From positions 806,001 through 870,000 of the forward strand of contig NC_088302.1 in the NCBI RefSeq assembly GCF_032854445.1: a stretch of 64,000 bases of DNA. The letters run 5' to 3'. Positions 24,801 to 64,000 of the stretch are shown here, piece by piece. A model generated the notes under the pieces. The model had not been told where the DNA came from. It saw nothing but the letters and a program-made list of their open reading frames with translations, and did not search any database. Source of the stretch: Liolophura sinensis. Its lineage: Eukaryota; Mollusca; Polyplacophora; Chitonida; Chitonidae. The position numbers and the translations under genes are program-made. Numbering within the stretch: the stretch's first letter is position 1; each line of letters begins with the position of its first letter.

Positions 24801-27800
24801 CTTTTAGACATAAAGCTGCCACTCCTAGACTTATGTCAGACTTGTTCTAACTTATCATTCCTGAAATTTAAAATGACATGGAAGAACAGTAGAAAAGAGA
24901 GAGAGAGACAGAGAGTTTTAATTTTTTTCAGGCATAGTCAATCATTCAAGCAACCAATTAATAAATCTGCCCGTATCATACTGAAGCTGACTCTCATTCG
25001 TTCATTCACGTGTTCAGGTATGGGACGACAGGCTGGCAGCGTTAGCAGAGAAGTGGGCTAAGCAGTGTCAGCAACTGTCTGATGACAGCCGACAACTCCC
25101 AAGTGAGTAGCTCATTATAGTTAGCAACTGTCAGACGACATTCGACAACTACAAAGTGGGTAGTCCATGTTAATCAGCAACAGTCAGATGACAGTCGACA
25201 ACTACTAAGTGGGTAGTTCATGTTAATCAGCAACTGTCAGACGACAACCGACAACCACTAAGTGGGTAGTTCATGTTAATCAGCAACTGTCAGACGACAT
25301 TCGACAACTACTAAGTGGGTAGTTCATGTTAATCAGCAACTGTCAGGCGACAACCGACAACTACTAAGTGGGTAGTTCATGTTAATCAGCAACTGTCAGG
25401 CGACAACCGACAACTACAAAGTGGGTAGTCCATGTTAATCAGCAACAGTCAGATGACAGCCGACAACTACTAAGTGGGTAGTTCATGTTAATCAGCAACT
25501 GTCAGGCGACATTCGACAACTACTAAGTGGGTAGTTCATGTTAATCAGCAACTGTCAGACGACAGTCGACAACTACTAAGTGGGTAGTTCATGTTAATCA
25601 GCAACTGTCAGACGACAGTCGACAACTACTAAGTGGGTAGTTCATGTTAATCAGCAACTGTCAGACGACAGTCGACAACTACTAAGTGGGTAGTTCATGT
25701 TAATCAGCAACTGTCAGATGACAGTCGACAACTACTAAGTGGGTAGTTCATGTTAATCAGCAACTGTCAGATGACATTCGACAACTACTAAGTGGGTAGT
25801 TCATGTTAATCAGCAACTGTCAGATGACAGTCGACAACTACTAAGTGGGTAGTTCATGTTAATCAGCAACTGTCAGACGACAGTCGACAACTACTAAGTG
25901 GGTAGTTCATGTTAATCAGCAACTGTCAGGCGACAACCGACAACTACGAAGTGAGTATCTCATGTCAGTTGTTCTCATGCGTATTAACATAATCAATAAA
26001 CTCATTGCCTTTAGAGATAAACAAAAAGATTAAGCAACAGTATTTCACAATGCATGTATAGACACCTGCACGAATCTATTAATTTTGGATAATAGGACAA
26101 CGAAAGAGCCTTCCTGCATTTTACCTGATGACAGCTTATTGCAAATGAGTGTTTTAATGAGCTTATAATGATAGTCATTCTGGAAATTTGGAACTCTTGT
26201 TTTAACCTCAAAGTCAACTTATTCGCTCTATCTGGCTAATTGACCACTGTAAATGCTTCATACAACAGTTGCTATATAAAGCTCAAACTGGGACTTGACC
26301 AGCGTATAGTACAATAACTCAGGATAAACTCAAGTAAGGTCATTTTATCAGATAAATATTCTGGCCACCATCTCTGTAATATGAGAGTTATTCTGAGCAG
26401 ATTACGGGGCGACCATAGGTCAGAATGGCGCTTGGGGCTACCAAGACTGGAAGGGTGCCCTAGGGGCGTGGTCAGGCGAGGCGGAAATATACCGGTTTGG
26501 TCGGGATCCCGAGAGCTACCTCCCCGTGGGCCACACCTGGCAAGACATTGGGCATTATACGCAGGTGAGTCTACCATTCACTCTGTGTAACGTGCTGAGG
26601 CCAGTTTTACAATTATGTCGTAACACTATGACAAGCGCATTCGCCATATCTTGTCATAAAGGTTACGCCAGGCGCAGTCTTCGAATGGTTCGTAAAGCAG
26701 GCCCGAGGGGTGTTGCCGGGCAGAAATCAGAACATAAGTCTGAAGGCAAACAAAATACTCTTTTGATTTCAGACAGTGTCTTTTTTTTTGCCATAGAGAT
26801 TGCTTTCACGCCTATATAATTAAGTCAAAACAGCTACAAGGTCGGGAAAGTGGGTTAATAATCGGAGATTATGTAGCAATTTAGGGTCACACAGAGAAGG
26901 ACTTATACACCTGTTACTGTTTACTTATTTGATTGATGTTTTACGCCGTACTCAAGAATTTCACTTACAAGACGGTGTCCAACATTATGGTGGCAGGAAA
27001 CTGGACACAGACCGGGGGATATCTATGTTTACAAGTCACAGCGCGCGGAGAAGACAGATAAGCAACTCATGAAAAAACAGATAGCTTGAGAATATCTTCC
27101 TCATGTTTGTTTTTTAAGGTCAAAAGAAGAAAAGAAAACATGAAAGCCGCTTATAAAGTTTTGTGAGTGTTTTTGCTTGACATTTACAAGCATGCACAAG
27201 AAAATTATGATTTTCCATCTTTACACTCCAGGGTTAATAAACGCGTCTATGACGGGATATAACACCCATTCTTTCTACCCCGTCAGTGATCAGTATGCCC
27301 TAGGTTGTACTCAGAACAGCATGTGAGTTCTGCAAAAACACCTAGACTATCTGGGAAGCGGAAAATTACATAAATCCAACGAATACACTATCGCCGACAT
27401 CGATTTAAAAATAGACATTTTCCTGAACAACATTTTGCAGGACGAATTTCTTCACCCACTGTGTTTGAAACCAGGGAAATCTAGCTTCCGGGTTGTCTTA
27501 TAGAATAGCGTATAATTTCACACAATCATCTGTTGGTGTCGGGAGTCATACTTTTCCATGTATGTGAAGAAACTAATAGCGGCGGGCGATTTGACCATAA
27601 CCCAGTTACGCAATAGGCCTACTACACATACAGCTGAGTAGATCCACGCTAAGCTGTGGCAGAATTCAGGCTACGGTCGTGATGCTCTGTGAGGAAAATA
27701 ATCCAGAGAATCAACTCAGATGAATGGTTGCGTGGAAGGGCAGAAAAACAAACATTTGCTGCAACGAATGTAGAGCCTATAATAGTCCCGCAATTGCCAA

Positions 27801-30800
27801 TTAACCCCTATTGTTGTTGTTGTTGCAGATGGTTTACAATACGACTGTAAGAATAGGCTGTGGATTCGCCAAGTGCCGCGAGGTCGAGGCTCAGAAATAC
27901 ATAAGCTTTTATTTCTGTAACTATGCCTCCGGGTGAGATTGTCTAGTATTTGTATGTATAGGTCTATATCAAAAAACGGATTGTTAGGCAACTGAGTGCT
28001 ATTAAAAAATCCAGTAACTCTTGAAATACCATTTAAACGAAGATATAATATGCTATTGTAAGAAGAGAGAGATAAACATTTCAACCAAATGCCTTTATCA
28101 TTAACTTAGCTTCGGTCAATGCATAACCTGGTGAAGTCTGATCACGTTCTCTACCTGGAACTTTTTGACTTCTGTACGACAATAATATTTCACCGCTAAA
28201 ACGTATACGGTAAATCATAATGGAGCATATGGATAGATAGTACAGGATGGAGTGAAGTAACGATAACACTCGTACCGATAAGCCACACCCAAAGTTCACT
28301 GGCGTCCCACCATGGATCGAGAAAAAACATACGCAGTGCCAAAACCGAATCTTACTTTTTCGTAAGTTAGAATGAAACATGAGGCACTTTATGACTGAGA
28401 CATCTATGCAAAACATTTTTAACCTATTTTTTGGAAAGCACCATTGTTTTGTTCACAGTCAGAGTTATCGTCAGGCTTTTCCGTACACGAACGGAAGTCG
28501 GTGCAGCGCATGTCCCGGAAGTTGTGTTAAAGGCGTTTGTAGTAAGTAATTTACCTTTGCTCTTAGCTTTGATTTATCACATCTGTGAGAATTTCACAGG
28601 ATGGTAGACATTTTGGCGCATAAATAAGTGTTTCTCATGTACGGTGTAACGACCTCCGGTATAGTAATGATTTTCAAAAGATCTGACTTGATAAATGTAG
28701 CGAAATCACAGTCAAACTCATGACAAACTCTGAATAATTGTAGCGAAATCACAGTCAAAGTCATGGCAAGCCCTGAATAAATGTGGTGAAATCACAGTCA
28801 AAGTCATGACAAGCTCTAAATAAATGTAGCGAAATCACAGTCAAACCCACGACAAACTCTGAATAAATGTAGCGAAATCATAGTCAAACTCATGACAAAC
28901 TCTGAATAAATGTAGCGAAATCATAGTCAAACTCATGACAAACTCGGAAATAGTTCACCAATGGGAACATTCGGCCGACATAAATGTGTAGACAGTGTTA
29001 CGTAGAGAAGGTTGTGTAGACATAGTGTTACGTAGAGAAGGTTGTGTAGACATAATGTTACGTAGAGAAGGTTGTGTGAACATTCGGCCGACATAAATGT
29101 GTAGACATAGTGTTACGTAGAGAAGGTTGTGTAGACATAATGTTACGTAGAGAAGGTTGTGTGAACATTCGGCCGACATAAATGTGTAGACATACTGTAA
29201 CGTAGAGAAGGTTGTGTGAACATTCGGCCGAAACAAATGTGTAGACATAGTGTTACGTAGAGAAGGTTGTGTAGACATAATGTTACGTAGAGAAGGTTGT
29301 GTGAACATTCGGCCGACATAAATGTGTAGACATAGTGTTACGTAGAGAAGGTTGTGTGAACATTCGGCCGACATAAATGTGTAGACATAGTGTTACATTG
29401 TGTGAATTTAGAACAGTTCAGGTAATTCATAAATAATGCTTAATCCAATGATTATTATTATAATGCAGTAAGGTGGATATTCAATGTTTCCCATCACTAT
29501 TACTGGTATCTTTCCATCGCTGTTTTCCTGTATATTTGTCACCAGTGGTATTATTTTCTCTTCACAGTGTGCGGCGGAAGGATTTGCGTCAATGGCGGTC
29601 ATTTGAACCTGGCCACGTGCACCTGCGAATGTCCCACATTATACAGCGGCATCAACTGTAAGAAGGGTAACTCACTTTTGGCAGTTTATTTCCACGATTA
29701 TCGGTTATGTAAAGAAGGCTTTCTGCTGTAACATTATTTTCCTGTCACATGCATATATTTTCCCAAAACTGAAGCTTACATACACGTAAATGAATGAATG
29801 TCGTTAGGCACCCATGTAGTATATTACACTGAATGAATGTCGTTAGGCACCCATGTAGTATATTACACTGAATGAATGTCGTTAGGCACCCATGTAGTAT
29901 ATTACACTGAATGAATGTCGTTAGGCACCCATGTAGTATATTACACACAAGAAACTAAATTAGTCCCAGTGGATTTTGTGTTTTAGGGAAAGGAAGATTT
30001 TATAACGAATAAAGTATATCAGTTCAGTGTGTATCTTAAGAGAAACATGCAAGGTTGCCTTCTCTGAAAACAGACACAATCCAATTGAACTGATTTACTA
30101 TTTTGCGTGTTTTACAAACGTCTTGATTGATTTGCCCTACAAAGGATGCGGTGTATTGTGTGTTTCATAAACGTCCTCTTGTTCTGTTTGATTTCAGTGG
30201 TTTGCCCTCCAAAAGACGAGGTGTTTTGTGGGAGGGAATGGCAGCCAAACATGTGCCAACTGTTCTCCAACGTCCCAGAAAAATGTCCATTCATGTGTGG
30301 AATATGCCCTGGTGAGATTAACATCAACTTCAATCTGTATTTTAAAATCTGACTAGATTTTAGTAATGATTCGTTGAGTAATTTAACAGGTCAAAAACAC
30401 GTCCCATCTTCATTTTGAATGCTAAGTTTAATACAATGAATAATTCTAATATTCTCACTGAATTTTGTTTGCAATAGTATGGATGTCCACCATTTATGTA
30501 TGTAGAGTTGTGCAGTTACGTTTCACTGACAAAAGGCAAGTTTGCTGATAACTGTGAGCGTTTTTACTGAAATCTGAACACAGGCGACTAACCTCATGAC
30601 GTGCGCTAATGGAGTATACAAGGTACAGGTGTTGTGCACACGACACCATTAGTATGACCTCGTATCACTGGAGATCTGCATGTCATGGATTTACCCCTGA
30701 ACATTCCACTCAGATAAGACAAACTGAAAATCCGCTGCTCTCTTAAAACTGAAAAGTTATATGTAAATTTGACAGTGTTAAAGAAAAGATGTTGGCAGTG

Positions 30801-33527: not shown

Positions 33528-33675
33528 CTCCTCATCGTGGTGGTGAGGTTTGTCAGTTTTACCTGACGTTCCCTGGATGCATACTATAGAAATGATCCCT
33601 AAAAGTATGATCTTACCACAGCAATTGCGAGAAAAATTGACTACCTCATTGATGCCCCTGTTTAGGTAGTGGGCC
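32590..33675. repeat. 1.1 kb duplication, left copy
   Basis: Matches 34180-35255 over about 1085 bp. The outer parts differ by scattered substitutions and small indels (for example tataacatgatatacaaa against tatacaaa), but about 33360-33614 is identical to its partner except for one base near 33360. Contains the candidate terminal exon. Confidence 0.92.
33400..33527 (+). CDS. Candidate terminal exon of CAP copy 1
   Basis: After the phase-1 donor at 32159, the acceptor accactcag at 33399 or the pyrimidine-rich tctcttccacgtag at 33432 both open the same frame, ending GVRCPLRAQERVL and TAG at 33527. An identical copy lies at 34983-35110. There is no homology support, and the minus strand is also open (KIILLGIISIVCIQG..., no ATG), so this is tentative. 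Confidence 0.35.
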
Positions 33676-34179: not shown

Positions 34180-35255
34180 CTGTTTTGAAACAGGATTTAA
34201 TATTATTGATTACCCAAGATTTGTAGATATTGTGTGGGCAACTCATCCAACCCATTCTTTCATATATTAACACTTATATCGTTCGTCGGTTTGGCTTACA
34301 TTTCTAGGTAGGAATGTGATTTGAGCATATTGAGCATGATTAATAAAATTAGTGTCACAAACTCTTACAATTATTTGAATTTATATTGGTATTTGTAACG
34401 GAACATGGTTATATAGAAGTGGAAGTACACGCATGCAGAAGTCTTCAGTGATGTGGGAAAGACATACGACTGTAATAACCGAGGAGTTATATTTCTGTTA
34501 TACAAAATATCATGTTATAAATGAAGATAGTAAAAGTATACAGGTATCTCAGTGGCGCTTTTATTTCAGCTTTTATTTAATTCAGTAGTTGCTGAATGGT
34601 GTAGCAGTACTTGTAGCTTTTGTCATGTTCTCAAACCGTTATCCCAGACTTGTGTCCCTGTATCCGCTGACTACAGATCCATAGAAACACAACAGCGAGA
34701 GCAGGAACAAGTCTGATTTCTGTGCACTGAGTGCTGACTATGGTGGTCAGTATATTCGCTTTGTTAGGAGATAACGTGAATTCATTTGTAAGATGTATAT
34801 TTATAACACGACACGTACCAGTGTACGTTTTCCGATGGCGGTATATCCATATAAATTACCTCCATGGTTTACAACAGTTTGGAGATCTGTCGTTGTGCGG
34901 ATTATGACGTGCAGCGTCCCTGTACGTGTGTGAAGCATTTATGCTGGTATACTATTGTTTGAGTTATGTGAACACCACTCAGATTGCACTCTCTCCCTCC
35001 GTCTCTTCCACGTAGGGAGGAGAGGAACGGTCATCAATGGCGTGAAGCTGCCATCTGTGAGGACGGATGGAGTTCGTTGCCCGCTTCGCGCTCAGGAGAG
35101 AGTGCTTTAGCTCCTCATCGTGGTGGTGAGGTTTGTCAGTTTTACCTGACGTTCCCTGGATGCATACTATAGAAATGATCCCTAAAAGTATGATCTTAAC
35201 ACAGTCATGGCGGGAAAAATTGACTACCTAATTCATGCCCTTGTTTAGGTAGTGG
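34180..35255. repeat. 1.1 kb duplication, right copy
   Basis: Partner of 32590-33675, offset about 1583 bp at the candidate exon, separated by about 500 bp of single-copy sequence that includes a T-rich tract. Confidence 0.92.
34983..35110 (+). CDS. Second copy of the candidate terminal exon
   Basis: Same sequence as 33400-33527, with the same acceptors and TAG at 35110. Could be an alternative last exon of CAP copy 1, or a passenger of the duplication. Confidence 0.25.
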
Positions 35256-37024: not shown

Positions 37025-37083
37025 ACAGAAAGAAGACTACCAGTTCTGCTCCCACAGAAATGTCACTTGCTGATACAGCACAG
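37025..37083 (+). CDS. CAP copy 2 first visible exon, S/T linker
   Basis: Acceptor gtgtatttacag, donor gtatgg, phase 1 to 0, 59 nt, encoding DRKKTTSSAPTEMSLADTAQ. Same phase pair as copy 1 exon 2 and at the same place before the CAP exon. No homology beyond that. Confidence 0.5.
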
Positions 37084-40000: not shown

Positions 40001-43000
40001 TCTTAATTTAAGTTAATGTCGTGGAGAACATATATTTTCTGATTTAGTTTGATGTTCTTTCAGCCGAGTTTTCAAAACTCAGAGCAAACATTTGTGACTA
40101 TAAAAAAAGACTTGTAAGATACAATGTGCTAAGAGAGTAGAGATCCGATGTGTTCAGATGAAGTATAAAATGTTAACACTGTGTGGTGTACAAAAGAATC
40201 AAATTTGTTTTGAGGATAAATTCTGAGTCTTTATATTTTACCTTGTTAATTTGTCATTAACACGTCAGACCCCTTCGCTGACTAATTAAACCTTCATGAA
40301 CGACGAATCAAATAAGTTGTCCACATATCATCAGATCTACCCATCATCAATTAAAATGGTCCGGATTCAGTGCAGATTTTAGATCAGCCACTCAATCAGC
40401 CAACGTCATTGTTTCCAGGTATGGGACAGTGAGCTGGCCCGGGTAGCCGGGAAGTGGGCCCGCCAGTGTAAGAACTACCATGACAAGGTGAGGAATATAC
40501 CCAGTAAGTATTCATCGGCTCCTCATCTCCCTGTCAGATAAGTACTTCACATCCGTAACTTTGTTCATGCATGAATGAAATATGTCGTAGCATATATCTT
40601 TGTTCGTGTCTGAATGAAATACTGTCATAGAATATAACTTTGTTCGTGTCTGAATGAAATGCGTCATAGCAAATAACTTTATTCCTGTCTGACTGAAATA
40701 CATCACAGCGTGTAACTTTGTGCGTGGCTGAATGAAATATATCACAGTGTGTAACTTTGTACGTGTCTGAATGAATTACGTCACAGCGTGTAACTTTTTA
40801 CGTTTCTGATGAATTAGGTCATAGCGTGTAATTTTGTCCGTTTTTAACTCAAATACGTCACAACGTGTAACTCTATACGTGTCTGAATGAAATACGTCAC
40901 AGCGTGTAACTTTGTTTGTGTCTAACTGAACAACGTCACAGCGTGTAACTTTTTACGTTTCTGATGAAGTACGTCATAGCGTGTAACTTTGTCCGTGTCT
41001 AAATGAAATACGTCACAACGTGTAACTTTGTACGTGTCTGAATGAAATACATCACAGCATGTAACTTTGTTCGTATCTGACTGAAATACGTAACGGCGTG
41101 TAGCTTTGTTCGTGTCTGACTGAACTACGTCGCGTCGTGTAACTTTGTACGTGTCTGACTGAACTATCTCACAGCGTGTAACTTTGTACGTGTCTGACTG
41201 AAATACGTCACAGCGTGTAACTTTGTTCGTGTCTGACTGAACTATGTCACAGTGTGTAGCTTTGTACGTGTCTGACTGAACTACGTCACAGCGTGTAACT
41301 GTGTATGTGTCTGAATGAAACACGTCACACCATGTAACTTTGTACGTGTCTGACTGAAACACGTCACACCATGTAACTTTGTACGTGTCTGAATGAAACA
41401 CGTCACAGCGTGTAACTTTGTGCGTATCTGACTGAAATACATCACAACATATAACTAATCAAGGAATTAATTTTTTAACTTACATGTTTACTTCACTGAA
41501 CACAGCAATGGTTAGCTCACTTCATTATGAGTCTCCATAAGCCGTACGTCTACATACGCTACAACAGTGGGTAGCTCACATCACTGTGGTTCTCCATAAG
41601 GCGTACGTCTACATACGCTACAATAGTGGTTAGCTCACTTCACTGTGAGTCTTCATATGCCGTACGTCCACAGACGCTACAGCAATGGTTAGCTCACTTC
41701 ATTGTGAGTTTCCATAAGCCGTACGTCTACATACGCTACAGCAGTGGGTAGCTCACATCACTGTGGGTCTCCATAAGGCGTACGTCTACATACGCTACAA
41801 TAGTGGTTAGCTCGCTTCACTGTGAGTCTTCATATGCCGTACGTCCACAGACGCTACAGCAATGGTTAGCTCACTTCATTGTGAGTTTCCGTAAGCCGTA
41901 CGTCTACATACGCTACAGCAGTGGGTAGCTCACATCACTGTGGGTCTCCATAAGGCGTACGTCTACATACGCTACAATAGTGGTTAGCTCACTTCACTGT
42001 GAGTCTTCATATGCCGTACGTCCACAGACGCTACAGCAATGGTTAGCTCACTTCATTGTGAGTTTCCATAAGCCGTACGTCTACATACGCTACAGCAATG
42101 GGAAGGTCACATCACTGTGGGTCTCCATAAGGCGTACGTCTACATACGCTACAATAGTGGTTAGCTCACTTCACTGTGAGTCTTCATATGCCGTACGTCC
42201 ACAGACGCTACAGCAATGGTTAGCTCACTTCATTGTGAGTTTCCATAAGCCGTACGTCTACATACGCTACAGCAATGGGAAGGTCACATCACTGTGGGTC
42301 TCCATAAGGCGTACGTCTACATACGCTACAATAGTGGTTAGCTCACTTCACTGTGAGTCTTCATATGCCGTACGTCCACAGACGCTACAGCAGTGGGTAG
42401 CTCACTTCATTGTGAGTCTCCATAAGTCGTGCGTTCACATACGTTACTGCTGTTAACGGAACTACTTTCAAGTTGCCATGCTGCATTCGCATTCGGGTGG
42501 ATCTGCACTCACTGCATGGCTACGGAAGGACCTACTACATATACAAATATTGTACGAGTAAATCTGGGAATTAGGGACGGGATCTCATGCTTACTTAGAT
42601 TTTAAGATTATGTACATTTTATGCGTGTTAAATTGCTTTGTCTTCAACCTAAAAACATAATTTACCACCCTTCTGTCCTAGAATTTGATGTTAATTAAAA
42701 AAAAAACTCTAACCACAATGTTTCCAAGTCCTATCAATGTTTTCTTCACCCAGATTATGGGTGTAGCGATCAGACAGAACGGTGCCTGAGGTATGTGTTT
42801 GTAGTGAGGATATGACCACACTGTTTCCCTTCCCACTGATTCTGCTCTCTCCATCATTTCTTCACCCAGGTTACAAGTTAGCGATTGGACAGAACACTTT
42901 CTAGGGTGTGCGTTTGTAGTGAGGATATGACCACACTGTTTCTCTTCTTACTGATTCTGCTCTCTCCATCATTTCTTCACCCAGGTTACAAGTTAGCGAT

Positions 43001-46000
43001 TGGACAGAACACTTTCTAGGGTGTGCGTTTGTAGTGAGGATATGACCACACTGTTTCTATTGCCACTGATTCTGGTCTCTCCATCATTTCTTCACCCAGG
43101 TTACAAGTTAGCGATTGGACAGAACACTTTCTAGGGTGTGTGTTTGTAGTGAGGATATGACCACACTGTTTCTCTTCTTACTGATTCTGGTCTCTCCATC
43201 TTTTCTTCACCCAGGTTACGGGTTAGCGATTGGACAGAACACTTTCTAGGGTGTGCGTTTGTAGTGAGGATATGACCACACTGTTTCTCTTCTTACTGAT
43301 TCTGGTCTCTCCATCTTTTCTTCACCCAGGTTACGGGTTAGCGATTGGACAGAACACTTTCTAGGGTGTGCGTTTGTAGTGAGGATATGACCACACTGTT
43401 TCTCTTCTTACTGATTCTGCTCTCTCCATCTTTTCTTCACCCAGGTTACGGGTTAGCGATTGGACAGAACACTTTCTAGGGTGTGCGTTTGTAGTGAGGA
43501 TATGACCACACTGTTTCTCTTCCCACTGATTCTGGTCTCTCCATCTTTTCTTCACCCAGGTTACGGGTTAGCGATTGGACAGAACACTTTCTAGGGTGTG
43601 CGTTTGTAGTGAGGATATGACCACACTGTTTCCATTCCCACTGATTCTGGTCTCTCCATCTTTTCTTCACCCAGGTTACGGGTTAGCGATTGGACAGAAC
43701 ACTTTCTAGGGTGTGCGTTTGTAGTGAGGATATGACCACACTGTTTCTCTTCTTACTGATTCTGGTCTCTCCATCTTTTCTTCACGCAGGTTACGGGTTA
43801 GCGATTGGACAGAACACTTTCTAGGGTGTGCGTTTGTAGTGAGGATATGACCACACTGTTTCTCTTCTTACTGATTCTCCATCTTTTCTTCACGCAGGTT
43901 ACGGGTTAGCGATTGGACAGAACACTTTCTAGGGTGTGCGTTTGTAGTGAGGATATGACCACACTGTTTCTCTTCTTACTGATTCTGGTCTCTCCATCTT
44001 TTCTTCACCCAGGTTACGGGTTAGCGATTGGACAGAACACTTTCTAGGGTGTGCGTTTGTAGTGAGGATATGACCACACTGTTTCTCTTCTTACTGATTC
44101 TGGTCTCTCCATCTTTTCTTCACGCAGGTTACGGGTTAGCGATTGGACAGAACACTTTCTAGGGTGTGCGTTTGTAGTGAGGATATGACCACACTGTTTC
44201 CATTCCCACTGATTCTGGTCTCTCCATCATTTCTTCACCCAGGTTACGGGTTAGCGATTGGACAGAACACTTTCTAGGGTGTGCGTTTGTAGTGAGGATA
44301 TGACCACACTGTTTCTCTTCTTACTGATTCTGGTCTCTCCATCTTTTCTTCACGCAGGTTACGGGTTAGCGATTGGACAGAACACTTTCTAGGGTGTGCG
44401 TTTGTAGTGAGGATATCACCACACTGTTTCTCTTCCTACTGATTCTGCTCTCTCCATCATTTCTTCACGCAGGTTACGGGTTAGCGATTGGACAGAACAC
44501 TTTCTAGGGTGTGCGTTTGTAGTGAGGATATGACCACACTGTTTCTCTTCTTACTGATTCTGGTCTCTCCATCTTTTCTTCACGCAGGTTACGGGTTAGC
44601 GATTGGACAGAACACTTTCTAGGGTGTGCGTTTGTAGTGAGGATATCACCACACTGTTTCTCTTCTTACTGATTCTGGTCTCTCCATCTTTTCTTCACGC
44701 AGGTTACGGGTTAGCGATTGGACAGAACACTTTCTAGGGTGTGCGTTTGTAGTGAGGATATGACCACACTGTTTCTCTTCTTACTGATTCTGGTCTCTCC
44801 ATCTTTTCTTCACGCAGGTTACGGGTTAGCGATTGGACAGAACACTTTCTAGGGTGTGCGTTTGTAGTGAGGATATGACCACACTGTTTCTCTTCTTACT
44901 GATTCTGGTCTCTCCATCTTTTCTTCACGCAGGTTACGGGTTAGCGATTGGACAGAACACTTTCTAGGGTGTGTGTTTGTAGTGAGGATATGACCACACT
45001 GTTTCTCTTCTTACTGATTCTGGTCTCTCCATCTTTTCTTCACCCAGGTTACGGGTTAGCGATTGGACAGAACACTTTCTAGGGTGTGCGTTTGTAGTGA
45101 GGATATGACCACACTGTTTCCATTCCCACTGATTCTGGTCTCTCCATCATTTCTTCACCCAGGTTACGGGTTAGCGATTGGACAGAACACTTTCTAGGGT
45201 GTGCGTTTGTAGTGAGGATATGACCACACTGTTTCTCTTCCTACTGATTCTGGTCTCTCCATCTTTTCTTCACCCAGGTTACGGGTTAGCGATTGGACAG
45301 AACACTTTCTAGGGTGTGCGTTTGTAGTGAGGATATGACCACACTGTTTCTCTTCCTACTGATTCTGGTCTCTCCATCTTTTCTTCACGCAGGTTACGGG
45401 TTAGCGATTGGACAGAACGCTGCCTGGGGTGCTGTGAGCTGGAAGGAAGCCATCAATATCTGGTATGAGGAGGTAAAGAAGTACCGATTCGGTGAGAATC
45501 CAGACGACTATCTGCCTGAGGGTTACCTGGAGATCGGCCATTACACACAGGTGTGTTCTCTGATAAATCCTACAACCCTAGTTGTTTTTAAGTAGCACTG
45601 GTCGTTGTGCACAGGTGGTGTCTCCTTATATACAGTCACACCTGTCGAACTTAGAGCGGTTTATAAATCAGGGGTTATTCCTCATGTACACAGGTAGTGC
45701 ATTCAAATACACAGTCACACCTGTTGAACTCAGAGTGGTCACAAATCACGGGTAATTCCTCTTTTACGTAGGTAGTGCCCCCTAATACACAGTCAAATCC
45801 GTCGATTTTAGAGCGGTCATAAATAACGTATTATTCCTCATGTACGCAGGTAGTGCCTCCCTAACATAACGTCACACCTATCGAACTCGGTCGACCGTTG
45901 ATGTCAGTTCCAGGCAATGTCCGTATAGACCATGTATATAAGCGTTGTAGATGCCGTATTGTCGGTCCATGGTCCCAGCTGGAATGTCTGTATGGATCAT

Positions 46001-52000: not shown

Positions 52001-55000
52001 GAATGAAAATGAATTACCAATATTTCATAAAATGTGTAGAACTCGGCATATGATAAATCACACAGTAGGACCTGAGCTTTCATATATCAGTCACCAGTGA
52101 CGGCAGTTCTCTCAACACCCTGTTTATTGTTTAATTTATTCATTTTTATTGGTGTTTTACTCCGTACTCAAGAATATTTCATTTATACGACGGCGGCCAG
52201 CATTATGGTGAGAGGAAACCGTGCAGAGCCCGGCAGAACCCGCGAGCATCCGCAGGTTGCTGGCAAGACCTTCCCACTTAAGGCCGGAGAGGAAGCCAGC
52301 ATGAGCTGGACTTGAACTCACATTCATCGCATTGGTGAGAGGCACCTGAGTCATTACATTGCGCTAGCGTGTTAACCAACTGAGCCACGGAGGCCCCCCT
52401 GTTCATTGCTTCAGCAAACGCGTATCTTTGTGTATAGGTTTACGACTAGCCCTACTTTAAAGGGGTTCTGTAAGGAAGTGTGATGTTTTAAAACCAAAAA
52501 CTAACGTGTTGTCTGAGTTGATGTCACAAACCGTAGATTGTGGACGCTTACTATATAATGGGCCGATACCACGGTCTTAAACATTCAAACATTTAGTCAG
52601 GGCCTAACATATCTCGCTTCAGCAGCACTATCATCCTACACTTCTGGTATTATCCCTTTGTCATTGTTAATCCGGAATATATGATAAATAAAAAGACTTA
52701 TTGCATCTGAAAAGGTTCAGATTATAGAGGACAATTATCCATCCGGAATCATCTCAGTGACGTCACACAGCTGAGTTCTGTAAGATGGATTTAGTAAAAC
52801 TCTTAGGTAAACAAAAATCTTAAAAATCACCACACATTCTTGGCGTGGATACATTTTGGTATCCGATGAATTTTTCACACTGCGTGTTTTTCAGAATGTA
52901 ATGGCAAACTTTGCCGCAACCACGGAACTCTTAACGTGACGACATGCCAGTGTGAATGTCAACCAGTGTATGGCGGGGAAGAGTGTGAACAGGGTGAGTA
53001 CAGCATGAAACCTTTGATGTCACGACATGTCAGTGTGAATGTGAACAGGGTGAGTACAGCACAGAACACTTAACGTCATGACATGTCTGTGAATGTCAAC
53101 CAGTGTATGGCGGGGTGTACTGTGGAGAGGGTGAGTACAGCACAGAGCCCTCAACGTCATGACATGTCTGTGAATGTCAACCAGTGTATGGCGGGAAGGA
53201 GTGTGAACAGGGTGAGTACAGCATGGAACCCTTAACGTCATGCCATGTCAGTGTGAATGTCAACCAGTGTATGGCGGGAAGAGTGTGAACAGGGTGAGTA
53301 CAGCATGGAACCCTTAACGTCATGACATGCCAATGTAAATGTCAACCAGTGTATGGTGGGGAAGAGTGTAAACAGGGTGAGTACAGCATGGAACCCTTAA
53401 CGTCATGACATGTCAGTGTGAATGTCAACCAGTGTTTGGCGGGGAGAGTGTGAACAGAGTGAGTACAGCACAGAACACTTAAGGTCATGACATGTCTGTG
53501 AATGTCAACCAGTGTTTGGCGGGGAAGAGTGTGAACAGGGTGAGTACAGCACAGAACCCTCAACGTCATGACATGTCTGTGAATGTCGACCAGTGTTTCG
53601 CAGGGAGGAGTGTGAACAGGGTGAGTACAGCACAGAACACTTAACGTCATGTCATGTCAGTGTGAATGTCAACCAGTGTTTGGCGGGGAAGAGTGTGAAC
53701 AGAGTGAGTACAGCATGGAACCCTTAACGTCATGACATGTCTGTGAATGTCAACCAGTGTTTCGCAGGGAGGAGTGTGAACAGTGTGAGTACAGCACAGA
53801 ACCCATAACGTCATGTCATGTCAGTGTGAATGTCAACCAGTGTAAGGTGGGGAAGAGTGTGAACAGGGTGAGTACAGCATGGAACCCTTAACGTCATGAC
53901 ATGTCAGTGTGAATGTCAACCAGTGTTTGGCGGGGAGGAGTGTGAACAGGGTGAGTACAGCACAGAACCCTCAACGTCATGACATGTCTGTGAATGTCAG
54001 CCAGTGTATGGCAGGGAGGAGTGTGAACAGGGTGAGTACAGCACAGAACCCATAACGTCATGTCATGTCAGTGTGAATGTCAACCAGTGTAAGGTGGGGA
54101 AGAGTGTGAACAGGGTGAGTACAGCATGGAACCCTTAACGTCATGACATGTCTGTGTGAATGTCAACCAGTGTTTGGCGGGGAGGAGTGTGAACAGAGTG
54201 AGTACAGCATGGAACCCTTAACGTCATGACATGTCTGTGAATGTGAACCAGCGTTTGGCGGGGAAGAGTGTGAACAGGCTGAGTACAGCATGGAACCCTT
54301 AACGTCATGACATGTCTGTGAATGTCAACCAGTGTTTGGCGGGAAGAGTGTGAACAGTGTGAGTACAGCATGGAAACCTTAACGTCATGACATGTCTGTG
54401 AATGTCAACCAGTGTTTGGCGGGGAAGAGTGTGAACAGGCTGAGTACAGCACGGAACCCTTAACGTCATGACATGTCTGTGAATGTCAACCAGTGTATGG
54501 TGGGGAGGAGTGTGAACAGTGTGAGTACAGCACGGAACACTTAAGGTCATGACATGTCTGTGAATGTCAACCAGTGTTTGACGGGGAAGAGTGTGAACAG
54601 GGTGAGTACAGCACAGAACCCTTAACGTCATGACATGTCAGTGTGAATGTCAACCAGTGTATGGCGGGGAGGAGTGTGAACAGGGTGAGTACAGCATGGA
54701 ACCCTTAACGTCATGACATGTCTGTGTGAATGTCAACCAGTGTATGGCGGGGAAGAGTGTGAACAGGGTGAGTACAGCATGGAACCCTTAACGTCATAAC
54801 ATGTCTGTGTGAATGTCAACCAGTGTATGGCGGGGAGGAGTGTGAACAGGGTGAGTACAGCACAGAACACTTAACGTAATGACATGTCCATTAACGTCAA
54901 CCAGTGTATGGTGGGGAAGAGTGTGAACAGGCTGAGTACAGCACAGAACACTTAACGTCATGACATGTCTGTGAATGTCAACCAGTGTATGGCGGGGAGG

Positions 55001-58000
55001 AGTGTGAATAGGGTGAGTACAGCACAGAACACTTAACGTCATGTCATGTCAGTGTGAATGTCGACCAGTGTTTGGCGGGAAATAGTGTGAACAGGGTGAG
55101 TACAGCATGGGACCCTTAACGTCATGACATGTCTGTGAATGTCAACCAGTGTATGGCGGGGAGGAGTGTGAACAGGATGAGTACAGCACAGAACACTTAA
55201 CGTCATGACATGTCTGTGAATGTCGAGCAGTGTTTGGCGGGGAGGAGTGTGAACAGTGTGAGTACAGCACAGAACACTTAACGTAATGACATGTCCATTA
55301 ACGTCAACCAGTGTATGGTGGGGAAGAGTGTGAACAGTGTGAGTACAGCACAGAACCCTTAACGTCATGACACGTCTGTGAATGTCAACCAGTGTTTGGC
55401 GGGGAGGAGTGTGAACAGTGTGAGTACAGCACAGAACACTTAACGTAATGACATGTCCATTAACATCAACCAGTGTTTGGCGGGGAGGAGTGTGAACAGG
55501 GTGAACTAGAACCGTTAGAATCTAACCCTAAATGAGGTAAACTGAGCCAGATTTGTTAACCATCAGACTGGTGGTAGCAGACTGAGACTTTCGTTGCATT
55601 ATCTGGTGGTTACCACTTGATACTTGCTCAGTTACATCTTGATATTTTCTCAGTTACAGCTTGATACTTTCTCAGTTACAGCTTGATGCTTGCTCAGTTA
55701 CAGCTTGATGCTTTCTTAGTTACAGCTTGATATTTGCACATTTACAGCTTGATACTTGCTCAGTTACAGCTTGATACTTTGTCAGTTACAGCTTAATGTT
55801 TGCTCAGTTACATCTTGATACTTGCTCAATTACAGCTTGATACTTGCTCAGTTACAGCTTGAGTCTTTCTCAGTTACGGCTTGATGGTTGTTTAGTTACA
55901 GCTTGATGCTTGGTCAGTTACAGCTTAATGCTTGCTCAATTACAGCTTAATGCTTGCTCAGTTACATCTTGATACTTGCTTAATTACAGCTGGATACTTG
56001 CACAGTTACAACTTGATACTTGCTCAGCTACAGTTTGATACTTGCACAGTTACAACGTAATGCTTGCTCAGTTACAGCTTGATACTTGCTCAGTTACAGT
56101 TTGATGCTTGCTCAATTACAGCTTGATGCTTGCTCAGTGGCAGCTTGATACCTGCTCAATTACAGCCTGATGTTTGCTCAGTTACAGCCTGATGCTTGCT
56201 CGGTTACAGCTTGATACTTGCTCAGTTACAGCTTGATACTTGCTCAATTACCGCTTGATACTTGCTCAGTTACAGCTTGAGTCTTTCTCAGTTACGGCTT
56301 GATGCTTGCTCAGTTACAGTTTGATGCTTGCTCAATTACAGCTTGATGCTTGCTCAGTGGCAGCTTGATACCTGCTCAATTACAGCCTGATGTTTGCTCA
56401 GTTACAGCTTGATGCTTGCTCAGTTACAGCTTGATGTTTTCTCAGTTACAGCTTGATACTTGCTCAATTACAGTTTGATGTTTGCTCGGTTACAGCTTGA
56501 TACTTGCTCAGTTACAGCTTGATGCTTGCTCAGTTACAACTTGATGCTTGGTCAGTTCCAGCCTGATACTTGCTCAGTTACACCTTGATGCTTGGTCAGT
56601 TACAGCTTGATACTAGCTCAGTGACAGCTTGGTTTAGGTCGGTTGATAACCATTTATGTTTTACTGTAATCATGAATGCAAATTGGTGACTAATAAAAGA
56701 GTTCTACGTTGGAAGATACCAATCTGCTCCATTTGGTAACTGATTGGTTACCAAGTACTTACACTTTAATTTTCAACTTGATAAAACATGTAAACCAGTG
56801 TGTGACAGTCTATTTTATTGTATTTTGCAGTGTTTTGTCCCCCGGAAGACGCTTGGTTTTGCGGTTCCTCATGGCTCCAGTCTTCCTGTAGCGAGTACGC
56901 CAACGCCCCGTCCCTCTGCCCGTACCTATGTGGACTGTGTCCAGGTAATCAACTATCCTCTTCCTCTCAACAACCCGTCCCTCTGTCCTGTGTGGACAGT
57001 GTCCAGGTAATCAACTATCCTCTTCCTCTCAACAACCCGTCTCTCTGTCCTGCGTGGACAGTGTCCAGGTAATCAACTCTCCTCTTCTCCCGTCCCTCTG
57101 TCCGTATTTATGTGTACTGTGTCCAGGTAATCATCTCTTCTCTTCCTCTCAACAACCCGTCCCTCTGCCCGTACCTATGTGGACTTTGTCCAGGTAATCA
57201 GCTCTCCTCTTCCCCTCAACGCCCCGTCCCTCTGCCCGTACCTGTGTGGACTGTGCCCAGGTAATCAGCTCTCCTCTTCCTCTCAACGTCCCGTCCCTCT
57301 GTCCTGTGTGGACACTGTCCAGGTAATCAACTCTCCTCTTCCTCCCAACGCCCCATCCGTCTGTCCTTACCTGTGCGGACTGTGTGTCCAGGTAATCAGT
57401 ATGTTTCACCGTCGTCGTTACATAAACTTTGGTCCTTTTTTCCTTTTTATGTCAGCCTTCTTTGACAGGATGTCTCAGTGAGTCAGTTTTAAGGCTGTCA
57501 CAATAAAAACCTGGTTGACAACAAACGTAATGTTGAAAAACGATAATTAATCCAAATTAGTATACAAGCCGTCAGTCGACATTCTTTGGCTGTGTTAAGT
57601 AGTAAATTTTTAATACACATAGTAACCATAAATTAAACAGGGTTTAATTTGGGATTCTAGTCTTGTGTGTGGTCACTACAAGAGCAACTGACAGGTGTGT
57701 AGATGGGACGTTTCTTGTACATATAACCTCAGATACCTTCACACAATACGGTAAGATCAGCAATTGTGGATTTGCCCTTGGCAGTGCTTGACTATATATG
57801 TCTGCAACAGCAGCATCTCAAATAGACCCATTTTAGGGAATACTAACTCAAGCCCATCTTACCTTATGCATAAGACTTTGAAATTAGTAACCTTGGTGCT
57901 TCTCTGGCATTGTACTGAGAATAATTGGATGAGACAAGAACTGGTCAGCAGCTAGGTTATGTCTAACATGTTCAAGTATATCCATAAGAACAATTTTTGT

Positions 58001-61000: not shown

Positions 61001-63308
61001 AGTTGTACAATCAGCATGGGTTACAACCAGTCTTACGGCTTACAATCAGTTGTACAATCAGCATGGGTTACAATCAATCATACGGCTTAAAATCGTTAAA
61101 TACATTCATGTGACCTGCCTTAGAAAAGGGGTGTAAATATATTCCGGTTCAGACGCAGACTCTGATAATAATGTCGTGGGTTCGAATCCAGCTGTCACGT
61201 CGTTTTTACAAACTCAGCGTACTTTCTCATACATTCTCTCTTTGTCTAATCTCGGAAGGTATATTAAATACATAAGTGCTTTATCGATGGGGAGGGTAAA
61301 TAGTAACTAAAGTCATAAATCTAATGACGTGCCTTTGAAGTAAAGCACTTGTTGAGGGAGAGATATAAATTCGTCTGCGCTACTGCGGTACATACAAATG
61401 CCGCTTTCGAATTGATGGACTTGCGGAATGCGGTTTCAGATTCCAGATCAACAGTCTCCGCAGGTGAGAAAAAAGTGACAACAACAAGAGCAGCACAAAC
61501 AACTACCCAGACAACAACACAGGCAACAACAGAGACAACAGTACAGGCAACACCCCAGACAGCAGCACAGGCAACAACCCAGACAACAGCAAAGGCAACA
61601 ACCGATATAATGACTACCATCACAGAAAGAGAGGTGACGATTTGTCCCTATGCCGGGGAGAAACATGACTCAGGTACTGTATGTAGTCGTTCACGCAATC
61701 AGTCATAATATCAGTATTGATCCCATACTGATGGTATTTACTATAATTGCATCTGTTTGACTTGGACTGGTGAGCTATAAACATTAAGTTTACAAACTTA
61801 AGCCCAATGAGGTAGCTTGTTCCAACCTAGCGTTTATTTCCGGAAGTTTGTGGGTTGTCTTGTGCTTGGAGGTTTGCCCGGTCCACGCTCCAAAACATGA
61901 AGTCCATCATAGGAATAAAATCCACTTCGGCACATCGTAAAACATGAAAAGATAAATACATGAATAAAGATAAGCAGATTCACTTTCAGAATACCCCCGC
62001 ATTTATCAGAGATGTATACTGTATTTTCCAAACCAGACACGTGTTTGGGGTTCGGGACCTGGGGTCAGGATCGTGGAGACTGCTTATCACGTGGTGGCCC
62101 GTGGGGGTGCGAACAGTGTGCTGCAGACCCGGAGTTTGCCCGAGGCTTCTGTCCTGTTATGTGTGGAATCTGTGATCGTGAGTCTCGGGACCCGATTGTT
62201 CATTTGTGTATTACCTAATAAACGTCTTAAATTACATTATAGATGAAATATTTTATCGGAACTCAGCAGCCAGTGCGTTTGTCCAACGCCTAAGTGTAAC
62301 AAGTGTAGATTTAGTTCATGTTTAAATGTAAAGCTCTTTGTTCATAGTGGTACTGGTAGTTTAAACATGTAACTGATGTCATTGTAGCCCAGTGTGACGG
62401 GTTGATGTGCGAACATGGCGGGACGCTGAACATAGACGAGTGTGAGTGTATCTGCCCGAGGTATTTTAGCGGAGACCGATGTCAGACAGGTATATACAAC
62501 ATTATCATAACCCGTTCGGACTAAACTAACGGTTACCACTCCGATACTGTGTATTGGGGTTTACCGGAAATTACTTAGATCGATGTACCTGGAAGCACAT
62601 TGTACACAATGACGTGAGCGTTTTCTAACATTTTACACCGACGATAAAGTCCAAATATTCGGGGTATTCTTTTCTTAGCGGGGTATGAAGCCTTACTGTT
62701 CGGACATGAGGTTAAGTGTTCAAAGACTCTCCCCGTTGAACCGTGCACAGCTCTCATTTTCATAGCAAAGGCTCCCTTTAACGTTCTTACACAGGAAGAT
62801 CTTCCACCAACGTGCGGATATCCTCCCACCATTATGCTGACCGTCCTACAATATGTGAAATATAAGTACGACGTAAAGCACCAATCAAATAAATAAATAA
62901 ATAAGTAAATATCGAATCAAATAAAGAAAAAAAGTTGTCACTGGAGGAAATGTTTACCTCCAACAGCCACATTATCAGGTGATCTCTGGTCACGGGCGGT
63001 TTTACAGAAAGAGGATGCTTTCTCACTTTGTTTGATCTGGAAAAGCATGCTAATTTAAGTTTCAAATCTGAATTTTTTGCTTGACATAATACGGAAGAAA
63101 AGCACAAGAGTCATCACGACACATAAATATCATCCGGTTTTCGATTAAGTGATCTGGAATGCGGTTTCAGACACAAGAGCCACTATTTCGTCAGGTATTC
63201 CAGAAGTGACCACTATAACAACAGCCCAGACAACAACCCAGGCAAGGGCTACAACCATCGCGAGAGAGGTGACGATTTGCCCCTATTCCGGGGAGAAACT
63301 TGACACAG
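37025..63308 (+). CDS. CAP-EGF-ShKT multidomain protein, copy 2 (broken frame, 3' incomplete)
   Basis: Exons 37025-37083, 39756-39935, 40419-40503, 45393-45550, 51219-51319, 51659-51742, 52895-52993, 56831-56944, 58125-58541, 58842-58979, 59413-59553, 60701-60802, 61440-61673, 62037-62177, 62388-62489 and 63171-63308, continuing past the window. Domains: linker, CAP, Cys hinge, EGF, ShKT, mucin-like linker, then [PST linker, ShKT, EGF] twice, then another linker. CAP motifs are AHNRIRG, IGQNAAWG, GHYTQ/LVYNTT and FCNYAPG. Exons match copy 1 in size and phase except the hinge exon (84 against 83 nt), whose extra base shifts the frame. No signal-peptide exon was found; the first exon is in phase with the end of copy 1 exon 11, so it may be an internal part of one large gene. 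Introns are full of arrays, five of them copied from splice junctions. Confidence 0.75.
37575..39560. repeat. 72-bp minisatellite with 648-bp higher-order unit
   Basis: About 27 units of the type catgactttatgtccacaag plus gtcgtcatcgctatgaacag, acatgaacaccagac..., all in the intron before the copy 2 CAP exon. A nine-unit block recurs: 37755-37952 is repeated at 38403-38600 almost unchanged, an offset of 648 bp (9 x 72). Confidence 0.93.
39756..39935 (+). CDS. CAP copy 2, N-terminal CAP exon
   Basis: 180 nt, phase 0 to 0; QPSETCAEEFRDIPGHTMC..., then IIRAHNRIRGNVDPPATDL, aligned with 24430-24612. Weak acceptor (cattttggaag) and the donor gttagt. Confidence 0.85.
40419..40503 (+). CDS. CAP copy 2, second CAP exon
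   Basis: 85 nt, phase 0 to 1, encoding VWDSELARVAGKWARQC...; same length as 25018-25102. Donor gtaagt. Unlike copy 1, its donor was not amplified. Confidence 0.9.
40530..41455. repeat. About 39-bp minisatellite, about 23 copies
   Basis: Unit gaaatacgtcacagcgtgta plus actttgtacgtgtctgact, with frequent substitutions. The Thr/Asp/Val-rich minus frame is a by-product. Confidence 0.9.
41500..42450. repeat. 57-bp minisatellite in a 171-bp higher-order repeat
   Basis: Three unit types (cttcattatgag/ttccataagcc, catcactgtggg/ctccataaggc, cttcactgtgag/cttcatatgcc) follow one another in fixed order about five times. The motif cgtacgtctacatacgctac is shared. Confidence 0.92.
42740..45392. repeat. About 115-bp array copied from the acceptor of the next exon
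   Basis: About 23 units, each with a branch-point-like tactgat, a pyrimidine tract (tctctccatcttttcttcac), cag, and the first bases of the exon (gttacgggttagcgattgga, cagaac), followed by actttctagggtgtgc instead of the real gctgcctggggtgctg. In the exon's frame nearly all copies hit TAG at the same spot. The last unit abuts the true exon at 45393. Confidence 0.95.
45393..45550 (+). CDS. CAP copy 2, GQN/HYTQ exon
   Basis: 158 nt, phase 1 to 0; YGLAIGQNAAWGAVSW..., IWYEEVKKYRFGE, ending GHYTQ before gtgtgt. The only full-length member behind the long array of acceptor copies. Confidence 0.9.
45551..45880. repeat. Degenerate copies of the HYTQ exon donor
   Basis: Four diverged units of about 77 bp, each with tacacag or a variant followed by gtggtgtctcc, gtagtgcattc, gtagtgcccc or gtagtgcctcc. 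They resemble the real junction tacacacag|gtgtgttctct. Old and only partly preserved. Confidence 0.65.
45930..48530. repeat. 67-bp minisatellite, subfamily 1, about 38 copies
   Basis: Unit gatgtatgtgaatgtagaag plus ttacattgtcggtctgtggt, cccatctgcaatgtccgtatagatcat. Copies near 47700-48350 are almost identical. In the intron after the HYTQ exon of copy 2. Confidence 0.94.
48530..50355. repeat. 67-bp minisatellite, subfamily 2, about 27 copies
   Basis: Same period and frame as subfamily 1, but the unit reads gaatgtgagtgttgtagatg, tggtattgtcggtctgtggt, tccagttgtgatgtgcgtat. The switch is abrupt at about 48530, with one hybrid unit at about 47680. Confidence 0.94.
50444..50503. other. 28-bp near-perfect hairpin with 4-nt loop
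   Basis: Left arm 50444-50471 (caatgtcgcacatatggcaa...) and right arm 50476-50503 (...gctatatgtgcgacattg) are complementary at 27 of 28 positions, with the exception a G-T pair; the loop is aaag. Just beyond the 67-bp array and upstream of the exon at 51219. Could be a foldback element, a small-RNA hairpin, or the scar of an inverted duplication. Confidence 0.8.
51219..51319 (+). CDS. CAP copy 2, CAP signature exon
   Basis: 101 nt, phase 0 to 2; LVYNTTVRVGCGYAKC..., MPFYFCNYAPG. Three bases shorter than copy 1. Acceptor tacttttttcag, donor gtaagg. Confidence 0.9.
51659..51742 (+). pseudogene. CAP copy 2 hinge exon with one-base frameshift
   Basis: 84 nt against 83 in copy 1. The upstream part reads in frame (QGLRSDYPYI), and the downstream part encodes the expected Cys hinge (QCSACPDNC, KGVC) only in the next frame. 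The extra base is placed by alignment at about 51690. Without correction a TAG follows a few codons later. No alternative AG or GT near either end restores phase. It may be a real lesion or a sequence error. Confidence 0.75.
52133..52398 (-). mobile_element. tRNA-headed SINE, nearly full length
   Basis: Minus orientation: head ggcctccgtggctcagttgg, B-box region gagttcaagtcc, body cctctcaccataatgctggc, tail end in aataaat. In the intron between hinge and EGF exons of copy 2. Confidence 0.88.
52895..52993 (+). CDS. CAP copy 2, EGF-like exon
   Basis: 99 nt, phase 1 to 1; six Cys (CNGKLCRNHGTLN..., TCQCECQPVYGGEEC). Same length as copy 1. Its 3' half plus donor gtgagt seeds the following array. 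Confidence 0.9.
52994..55505. repeat. 83-bp array copied from the EGF exon donor junction
   Basis: About 30 units. Each carries about 65 bp of the exon's 3' half (aacgtcatgacatgtcagtg, tgaatgtcaaccagtgtatg, gcggggaagagtgtgaacag), then gtgagtacagcatggaaccc. Most copies keep GTGAGT; a few have ctgagt. No copy has an acceptor, so these are exon stubs with usable donors only. Confidence 0.95.
55610..56630. repeat. 22-bp minisatellite, about 46 copies
   Basis: Unit cttgctcagttacagcttga plus ta or tg, with scattered variants. Directly follows the exon-derived array but is unrelated to it. Confidence 0.92.
56831..56944 (+). CDS. CAP copy 2, first ShKT-like exon
   Basis: 114 nt, phase 1 to 1; VFCPPEDAWFCG..., six Cys, ending LCPYLCGLCPG. 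Acceptor tgtattttgcag, donor gtaatc. Confidence 0.9.
56945..57410. repeat. About 60-70 bp array copied from the ShKT exon donor junction
   Basis: Seven copies of the exon end (ccgtccctctgcccgtacct, atgtggactgtgtccag) plus gtaatc and cttcctctcaac. All seven keep CAG|GTAATC (donors at about 57007, 57069, 57127, 57194, 57261, 57323 and 57392). Spacing varies from about 58 to 69 bp. Confidence 0.94.
57411..58124. other. Single-copy intron before the mucin-like exon
   Basis: No exon, array or SINE recognised in this 0.7 kb. The acceptor tgtttaacag at its end is good. Confidence 0.5.
58125..58541 (+). CDS. CAP copy 2, mucin-like exon
   Basis: 417 nt, phase 1 to 1, 138 codons rich in Thr and Ser (STQTTTSTPIVETT, ITTTTTEETTTT), low in Cys. 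Likely an O-glycosylated stalk. Copy 1 has no equivalent at this point. The minus strand is also open (Val/Asp-rich), a by-product of the codon bias. Confidence 0.8.
58842..58979 (+). CDS. Cassette 1 linker exon
   Basis: 138 nt, phase 1 to 1. T-rich, with SPGIPEVTATKS, then EREVTICHYSGKKHDSG. Homologous to 31550 and to 61440 and 63171. Donor gtactg. Confidence 0.85.
59413..59553 (+). CDS. Cassette 1 ShKT-like exon
   Basis: 141 nt, phase 1 to 1; DTCLGFGTWGQDRGDC..., GCEQC, GFCPVMCGICD; seven Cys. Together with the linker's single Cys it has an even number. Nearly identical to 62037-62177. Confidence 0.88.
59728..60003 (+). mobile_element. tRNA-headed SINE, plus orientation
   Basis: Head gtgtggccgatgtggttagc and gagttcaagtcc, body ctttcttcctctccggccgt and acaacataatgctggc, tail gaatcaaatagataaataaa. 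In the intron between ShKT and EGF exons of cassette 1. Confidence 0.85.
60005..60520. repeat. About 25-30 bp irregular minisatellite
   Basis: Words such as acaatcagttgtacaatca, acacggctt and atcatacggcttacaatc recur in variable order. A further block of the same words is at 60970-61100, on the other side of the EGF exon. Confidence 0.85.
60701..60802 (+). CDS. Cassette 1 EGF-like exon
   Basis: 102 nt, phase 1 to 1; QCDGLMCEHGGTLN, then DECECICPRYFSGDRC. Six Cys. Acceptor gttattgtag, donor gtatgt. Protein identical to the 62388 exon. Confidence 0.88.
60970..61100. repeat. Detached block of the 60005 minisatellite
   Basis: Contains the same 'cagttgtacaatcagcatgg' and 'aatcaatcatacggcttaaa' words as the array 0.5-0.8 kb upstream. 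Confidence 0.75.
61440..61673 (+). CDS. Cassette 2 linker exon, mucin-like
   Basis: 234 nt, phase 1 to 1. An internal run of TTQ/TTA repeats (AAQTTTQTTTQATTETT) makes it longer than its relatives, then EREVTICPYAGEKHDSG. The expansion is in-frame and probably came from trinucleotide or hexanucleotide slippage. Confidence 0.87.
62037..62177 (+). CDS. Cassette 2 ShKT-like exon
   Basis: 141 nt; same protein as 59413 apart from one Val to Ala change, although about nine bases differ. Flanking intron ends are similar too (tcagagatgtatactgtatt against tcagagatgtatattgtgtt). Confidence 0.88.
62388..62489 (+). CDS. Cassette 2 EGF-like exon
   Basis: 102 nt; same protein as 60701 with two silent differences. 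Acceptor tcattgtag, donor gtatat. Confidence 0.88.
62786..62913 (+). mobile_element. SINE 3' half
   Basis: Plus orientation: atcctcccaccattatgctg, then acgtaaagcaccaatcaaat and a TAAATAAATA tail. Head missing or very diverged. Between cassette 2 EGF and the next linker. Confidence 0.78.
63171..63308 (+). CDS. Cassette 3 linker exon
   Basis: 138 nt, phase 1 to 1; SSGIPEVTTITTAQ, then AREVTICPYSGEKLDTG. The exon end and donor gtactg are the seed of the array that fills the rest of the window. Cassette 3 ShKT and EGF exons are expected beyond 64000. Confidence 0.85.
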
Positions 63309-64000
63309 GTACTGTATATGCCGGGGGAAAAACATGCCCATGTAATGCATGTGCTGGGGCGAAAACATGACCCAGGCACTGTATATGCCAGGGAGAAACA
63401 CGACCGAGGTACTGCATATGCCGGGGAGAAACATGACTCAGGTACTGTACATGCTGGGGAGAAACATGACTCAGGCACTGTATATGGCGGGAGAAATATG
63501 ACTCAGGTAGTGCATATGCCGGTCAGAAAAATGACTCAGGTACTACATATGCCGGGGAGAAACATGACCCAGGTACTGGATATGCCGGCGAGAAACAAGA
63601 CTCAGATACTGTATATGCCGGGAAGAAACATGACTCAGGTATTGTATACGCCAGACAGAAACATGACTCAGGTACTGCATATGCCGGGAAGAAACATGAT
63701 ACAACCACTGTATATGTCAGGGAGAAACATGAAGCAGGTACTGTATATGCCAGCGAGAAACTTGACTCACGTATTGTATATACTGGGGAGAAACATGATT
63801 CAGGCACTGTATATGCCGGGGAGAAACATGATTCAGGACTGAATATGCCGGGAAGAAACATAACTCAAGTACTGTATATGCCGGGAGAAACATGACCAAG
63901 GTTCTGCATATGACGGGGAGAAACATGACTCAGGTACTGTATATGCATGGGAGAAGCATGACTCGGGCACTGTATATGCCGGGGAGAAACATGACTCAAG
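63309..64000. repeat. 33-bp array copied from the linker exon donor junction
   Basis: About 21 copies of gtactgtatatgccggggag plus aaacatgactcag, i.e. exon end (GEKHDSG codons) and donor. Most copies keep CAG|GTACTG. The period is 11 codons, so the array stays open in several frames on both strands. It runs off the edge. Confidence 0.94.

Follow-up and report, generated by a model that had tools for sequence, protein, structure and literature searches.

In amphioxus, tandem repeats whose units straddle a splice junction are called "mirages", a term credited to Canestro et al. 2002 (Nucleic Acids Res 30:2871). In the accounts available to us, amphioxus mirages are minisatellite-like tandem repeats that run across an exon-intron boundary in Adh3, BflGb6, BflGb9, troponin C and PGBD5; they involve either the donor or the acceptor, have units of 10-160 bp, and are reported to be spliced regularly (PMC3087553, PMC3902484). 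Single cases of a similar kind are described in humans. The VNTR in intron 18 of ABCA7 is a 25-bp repeat at an exon end with a donor in every unit, but the unit begins at the donor GT with no exon portion copied, and it concerns a single locus (PMC5954066). CBS carries a 31-bp VNTR (c.1444_1467+7) with a unit that, read from the notation, comprises 24 exonic and 7 intronic bases, and a 68-bp duplication of intron 7/exon 8 in which the acceptor junction is duplicated and splicing is normal. Both are single loci in one gene, with no genome-scale count (PMC2630376). The Rogers model of intron gain by tandem duplication of a proto-splice site likewise involves duplicated sequence that carries splice signals (cited in PMC3087553). 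Intron minisatellites have also been described in earthworms, with no mention of junction copies in the part of that description available.

The arrays described here from a chiton are, like mirages, tandem units spanning a donor or acceptor junction, in several unrelated genes. Mirages are known from lancelets, whereas the chiton is a mollusc with a measured donor excess; splicing and length instability were tested in amphioxus, whereas the chiton arrays are known from the sequence of a single assembly. In contrast to the intron-gain model, the chiton arrays lie in existing introns, and no new intron was detected. By titles and abstracts we recognised no molluscan mirage in the literature searched; most subscription papers were outside our reach, so that this absence is unproved. 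The chiton arrays are genuine, they recur, and their kind is already known; as far as our searches show, the phylum is new for it, as is the combination of a mollusc, unrelated genes and a measured donor bias. A preliminary description of this DNA had known of no named class of repeat to which the arrays might belong; the mirages of amphioxus, together with the single human cases in ABCA7 and CBS, fill that place.

Junction-copying arrays in two tandem CAP genes

The window, by which we mean the whole 64,000-nucleotide stretch of DNA that was analysed (contig C8, positions 806001-870000), is part of a 609-Mb, 632-contig chiton genome, the assembly of which is described as built with PacBio HiFi and Omni-C. 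It contains two tandem paralogous genes, A and B, both on the plus strand. Joining exons A1-A4 (24430-27932) yields a CAP domain with E 1.6e-19 and joining exons B1-B4 (39766-51319) one with E 2.8e-21, and in both genes the frame is kept through the domain when the outermost splice sites are joined. The translations of five further exons gave sub-threshold EGF-type matches in Pfam in two cases and no match in three. Exon B5 (51659-51742) has a stop in the frame continuing from exon B4; gene B may be disrupted there, the exon edges may be wrong, or a base may be miscalled.

We placed 40 exon edges in the window (22 donors and 18 acceptors). Four donors (25103, 52994, 56945 and 63309) and one acceptor (45393) lie inside tandem arrays. 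These same five edges, and none of the other 35, are repeated at least twice more as near-copies in the 1 kb on their intron side, a near-copy being defined by at most four mismatches in a 20-mer of 8 exon and 12 intron bases. The exons and arrays concerned are:

25018..25102, plus strand: exon A2 of CAP gene A; array 1 derives from the exon end and the GTGAGT donor (25103)
25068..25965, plus strand: array 1; 53-bp unit, about 17 copies; 35 nt of the end of exon A2, donor and intron start
42740..45418, plus strand: array 2; 115-bp unit, about 23 copies; intron end with CAG acceptor and start of exon B3
45393..45550, plus strand: exon B3 of CAP gene B; acceptor 45393 is the last copy of array 2, donor 45551 is uncaptured
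52895..52993, plus strand: exon B6; donor 52994; EGF-like, weak Pfam match
52984..55504, plus strand: array 3; 81-bp unit, about 30 copies; up to 73 nt of the end of exon B6 and GTGAGT donor
56831..56944, plus strand: exon B7; donor 56945; ShK-like by eye, no Pfam match
56925..57399, plus strand: array 4; 62-67-bp unit, about 7 copies; up to 44 nt of the end of exon B7 and CAG|GTAATC donor
63195..63308, plus strand: exon B15; donor 63309
63284..64000, plus strand: array 5; 33-bp unit, about 22 copies in the window; about 25 nt of the end of exon B15 and CAG|GTACTG donor

In all five, as in seven further arrays at myosin loci (below), the unit spans the exon-intron boundary and adjoins an authentic junction of a coding exon, the coding status being given by the CAP domain of the joined exons in the window and by profile matches for the myosin-head exons. 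The exonic portion of the unit ranges from about 25 nt in array 5 (TRF start to donor) up to 73 nt in array 3, and in each of the five window arrays the authentic splice site is the outermost copy. Within 1 kb, array 1 holds 13 near-copies of its junction. The GT is kept in 16/16 copies of array 1, 26/30 of array 3, 6/6 of array 4 and 12/18 of array 5, and the AG in 22/22 copies of array 2. Array 5 runs on for about 0.5 kb beyond the end of the window (L003:1-499); the frame continuing from exon B15 stops about 60 nt after the donor, and we therefore rejected a coding repeat and treat this array as intronic.

Six junction-copying arrays, five with donors and one with an acceptor, had been put forward in the preliminary description. 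The five starting at 25068, 42740, 52984, 56925 and 63284 hold up, and with them four donor copies and the acceptor copy. The sixth, taken as a degenerate copy of the donor at 45551, falls away: the 78-bp array that follows (45628..45887, plus strand) begins, according to TRF, 77 bp past the exon edge, and the best downstream matches of this donor have 8, 8 and 9 mismatches in 20, the same as for uncaptured donors. The independent origin proposed for the arrays is borne out, and is supported for all five by paralogous edges that lie in no array: the acceptor of A3, the donors of A6, A7 and B2, and, for B15, the donors of B9 and B12. Each array thus either postdates the duplication of the genes or has disappeared from the sister copy. 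For the five arrays of the window, no new intron was found inside a former exon; the exon boundaries concerned are common to both tandem genes.

Tandem arrays make up 28,992 of the 64,000 bases of the window (45%), which lies about 0.8 Mb from the contig start. The largest, a 67-bp unit in about 66 copies over 4.4 kb (45914-50354), occupies the intron after exon B3, is not junction-derived and has a GC skew of up to 0.455. Array cover (periods of at least 10 bp) is 26-51% in six flanking 10-kb stretches and 0-29% in 14 arbitrary stretches, 12 of which are below 15%. Near three contig starts (C8 at 0.79-0.91 Mb, C10 at 0.72-0.73 Mb, C12 at 0.68-0.69 Mb) cover reaches 26-62%, far above most interior stretches, which suggests a subtelomeric enrichment of minisatellites.

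Captures in myosin genes and the donor excess

A profile search of the whole genome for myosin-head exons (PF00063) gave 81 matches, 46 of which, in 11 stretches chosen for closely spaced exons (L021-L031, 93.9 kb), formed our sample. Applied to their 92 ends, a simple score gave 44 donors and 45 acceptors. A further 24 myosin exons, counted after four array copies in L029 had been dropped, were found by tblastn; 23 of their donors were read by eye and tested, and their acceptors were left out. An edge was scored as captured by the criterion used for the window, with a minimum of two additional near-copies in the 1 kb on its intron side. Captures were found at five of the profile-defined donors (L026 twice, L024, L029 and L021), at one acceptor (L025) and at one of the further donors (L030). 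Three of these have a short exon portion: 12 nt in L021, and about 8 nt in each of L024 and L025. The arrays at L027:970, L028:4383 and L022:893 lie near a junction but do not copy one, and were rejected; a marginal array at L031:6172 was excluded from the count. The seven captures are spread over contigs C1, C2, C3, C8 (at 10.6 Mb), C11 and C12, so that the phenomenon extends beyond both the CAP genes and the contig ends, and the single gene family to which it had been assigned proves too narrow.

Several observations were made alongside. On the minus strand of L026, the array 8218-8742 has a 66-bp unit in which a T-rich stretch is followed by an AG, about 38 nt upstream of the donor; in principle, every unit might thus pass for a very small exon. 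Three exons in L021 (2195-2299, 2688-2783 and 3291-3386) match the same part of the myosin profile, and two of the peptides are 96.9% alike, as would be expected of mutually exclusive exons. A CAP paralog at 47.42 Mb on C1 (L032) has, about 90 bp downstream of a donor near base 866, one degenerate copy of exon end and donor, by eye perhaps a two-copy relic. Kinesin exons (132 matches in the genome) and TCP-1 exons (50 matches) are in no capture count; in a 2-kb TCP-1 stretch with three exons (L033), likewise uncounted, TRF found only a T-rich tract.

As control we took the share of intron points that fall in the first or last unit of an array. For random intron points these shares are 3.4% and 3.5% in the window (n=1252) and 1.9% and 1.1% at the myosin loci (n=1137). 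In the window 4/22 donors and 1/18 acceptors are captured, and at the myosin loci 5/44 scored donors, 1/23 donors read by eye and 1/45 acceptors. Donors taken together are captured in 10/89 cases, versus 15/778 for control points that lie 130-800 bp inside the intron (Fisher test, P 7e-5; control points inside one intron are not independent of each other). The excess is seen separately in the window (4/22 versus 6/197, P 0.011) and at the myosin loci (6/67 versus 9/581, P 0.002), each against its own controls. Among the 89 donors, the third-best match has either 0-4 or at least 7 mismatches, and the donor result is therefore independent of the mismatch limit. Acceptors show no excess (2/63 versus 15/550 control points, i.e. 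7/162 and 8/388). The difference between donors and acceptors (10/89 versus 2/63) is not significant (P 0.12), and the asymmetry itself is thus not proved. A bias at junctions, as had been suggested, accordingly holds for donors, which are above background, and not for acceptors, which are at background.

The captures belong to a broader pattern in the position of arrays (68 merged TRF arrays). Array starts per 50 bp number 0.031 over the 126 bp that precede the donor region, 0.052 in the first 50 bp of the intron, 0.045 in the second, 0.023 between 100 and 200 bp, and farther in 0.011 and then 0.018 (overall 0.022); the counts, for the same bins in order, are small (7, 5, 4, 4, 4 and 13). Within the first 100 bp of an intron, starts are thus about twice as frequent, and junction capture is the exon-overlapping edge of a wider cluster near donors. 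Array ends do not rise in number near acceptors (counts 2, 1, 2, 4, 8 and 10).

Origin of the arrays

We consider it likely that the arrays are minisatellites of the mirage type, duplicated at a splice junction and amplified in the intron, with inner copies that are mostly passengers and with a donor excess that stems from array starts near the 5´ ends of introns. If a tandem duplication had its two breakpoints on either side of a splice junction, one exonic and one intronic, the junction would be copied with it, and ordinary minisatellite turnover could then amplify the junction-bearing unit inside the intron. The outermost, authentic copy, i.e. the first donor or the last acceptor, is predicted from the sequence to still join the exons, and the inner copies would therefore be mostly tolerated passengers. 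The wealth of minisatellites in the introns of this chiton would account for the frequency of captures, and a preference of arrays for starting around intron 5´ ends would account for donors above background. Acceptor capture stays at background, perhaps through selection against acceptor copies, since a copy upstream of the authentic site would be transcribed earlier and be the first to be used.

The preliminary description had offered a mutational bias at junctions, selection for decoy sites and an ascertainment effect as explanations, and a bias near donors, in where arrays arise or survive, fits best as the probable cause of the donor excess. One possible, though by no means favoured, form of such a bias is a mutational process tied to transcription or splicing (e.g. 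pausing or R-loops) that produces more tandem duplications at 5´ splice sites. It agrees with an excess at donors and in the next 100 bp and none at acceptors. Seeding driven by GC content was rejected as an alternative, as units are 40.8% GC versus 38.8% outside arrays, too small a difference for the donor excess, and composition alone thus explains little. The process itself is hypothetical, and differential survival, with selection removing acceptor arrays, could add to the asymmetry. Chance overlap combined with ascertainment would require only that dense minisatellites must cross some exon edges and that a reader noticed a window with several such cases. Cover of 45% of the window and acceptors at background level speak for it. 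Placing one unit per array at random in 24300-64000 gives 0.87 expected matches and P(>=5) = 0.0017, a post hoc value for a window picked for its arrays. Donors nevertheless exceed local controls in the window, and they do so in myosin genes that were not used to form the hypothesis, which makes pure ascertainment unlikely; we regard this explanation as improbable.

That selection retains the copies as spare or decoy splice sites is more doubtful still. In its favour, GT or AG is kept in every copy in 9/12 capturing arrays, but across 152 copies the splice dinucleotides match the array consensus at 292/304 positions (96.1%) versus 4007/4256 (94.1%) for neighbouring sites, only slightly and not significantly better (P 0.2). 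The 6/18 copies of array 5 that lost their GT point the same way, as do unit-consensus donors that are weaker than the authentic ones in array 1 (GTGGGT for GTGAGT) and in L026 (GTCAGT for GTGAGT). Selection for working decoy sites thus finds no clear support. An assembly error might be suspected from a coverage of only 14x HiFi with a mean read of 8.3 kb, the values given for the assembly, but it is scarcely credible: the capturing arrays of the window are at most 2.7 kb long, the copies within them are not identical (79-96% matches), and 12 arrays, spread over 7 places, show the pattern.

One tentative reading that goes further is that the 5´ splice-site region, in the chiton and perhaps in other minisatellite-rich animals, is a birth hot spot where a mechanism linked to transcription or splicing gives rise to minisatellites. 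The sampled proportion is about one donor in nine, in a small set of exon-dense genes. Were it to apply to the whole genome, introns by the thousand would open with tandem copies of their own exon ends and constitute a standing supply of spare splice sites and proto-exons. In the accounts available, mirages have so far been a lancelet oddity beside single human repeats; a mollusc with captures in unrelated genes and a donor excess would make them a countable by-product of minisatellite birth. With many near-identical donors in a row, they may serve as natural experiments in splice-site choice and as a testable source of new exons and introns.

Repeats of other kinds are also present in the window. 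A dispersed element ending in a tRNA-like stretch, with copies at 52130-52400, 26925-27000 and other places, resembles what we take to be a SINE common in molluscs. The segments 33360-33524 and 34934-35107, about 1.6 kb apart, are near-identical, share the same open-frame translation and form a dispersed direct repeat. Finally, 50445-50501 is a near-perfect palindrome with arms of about 26 bp and a 4-bp loop.
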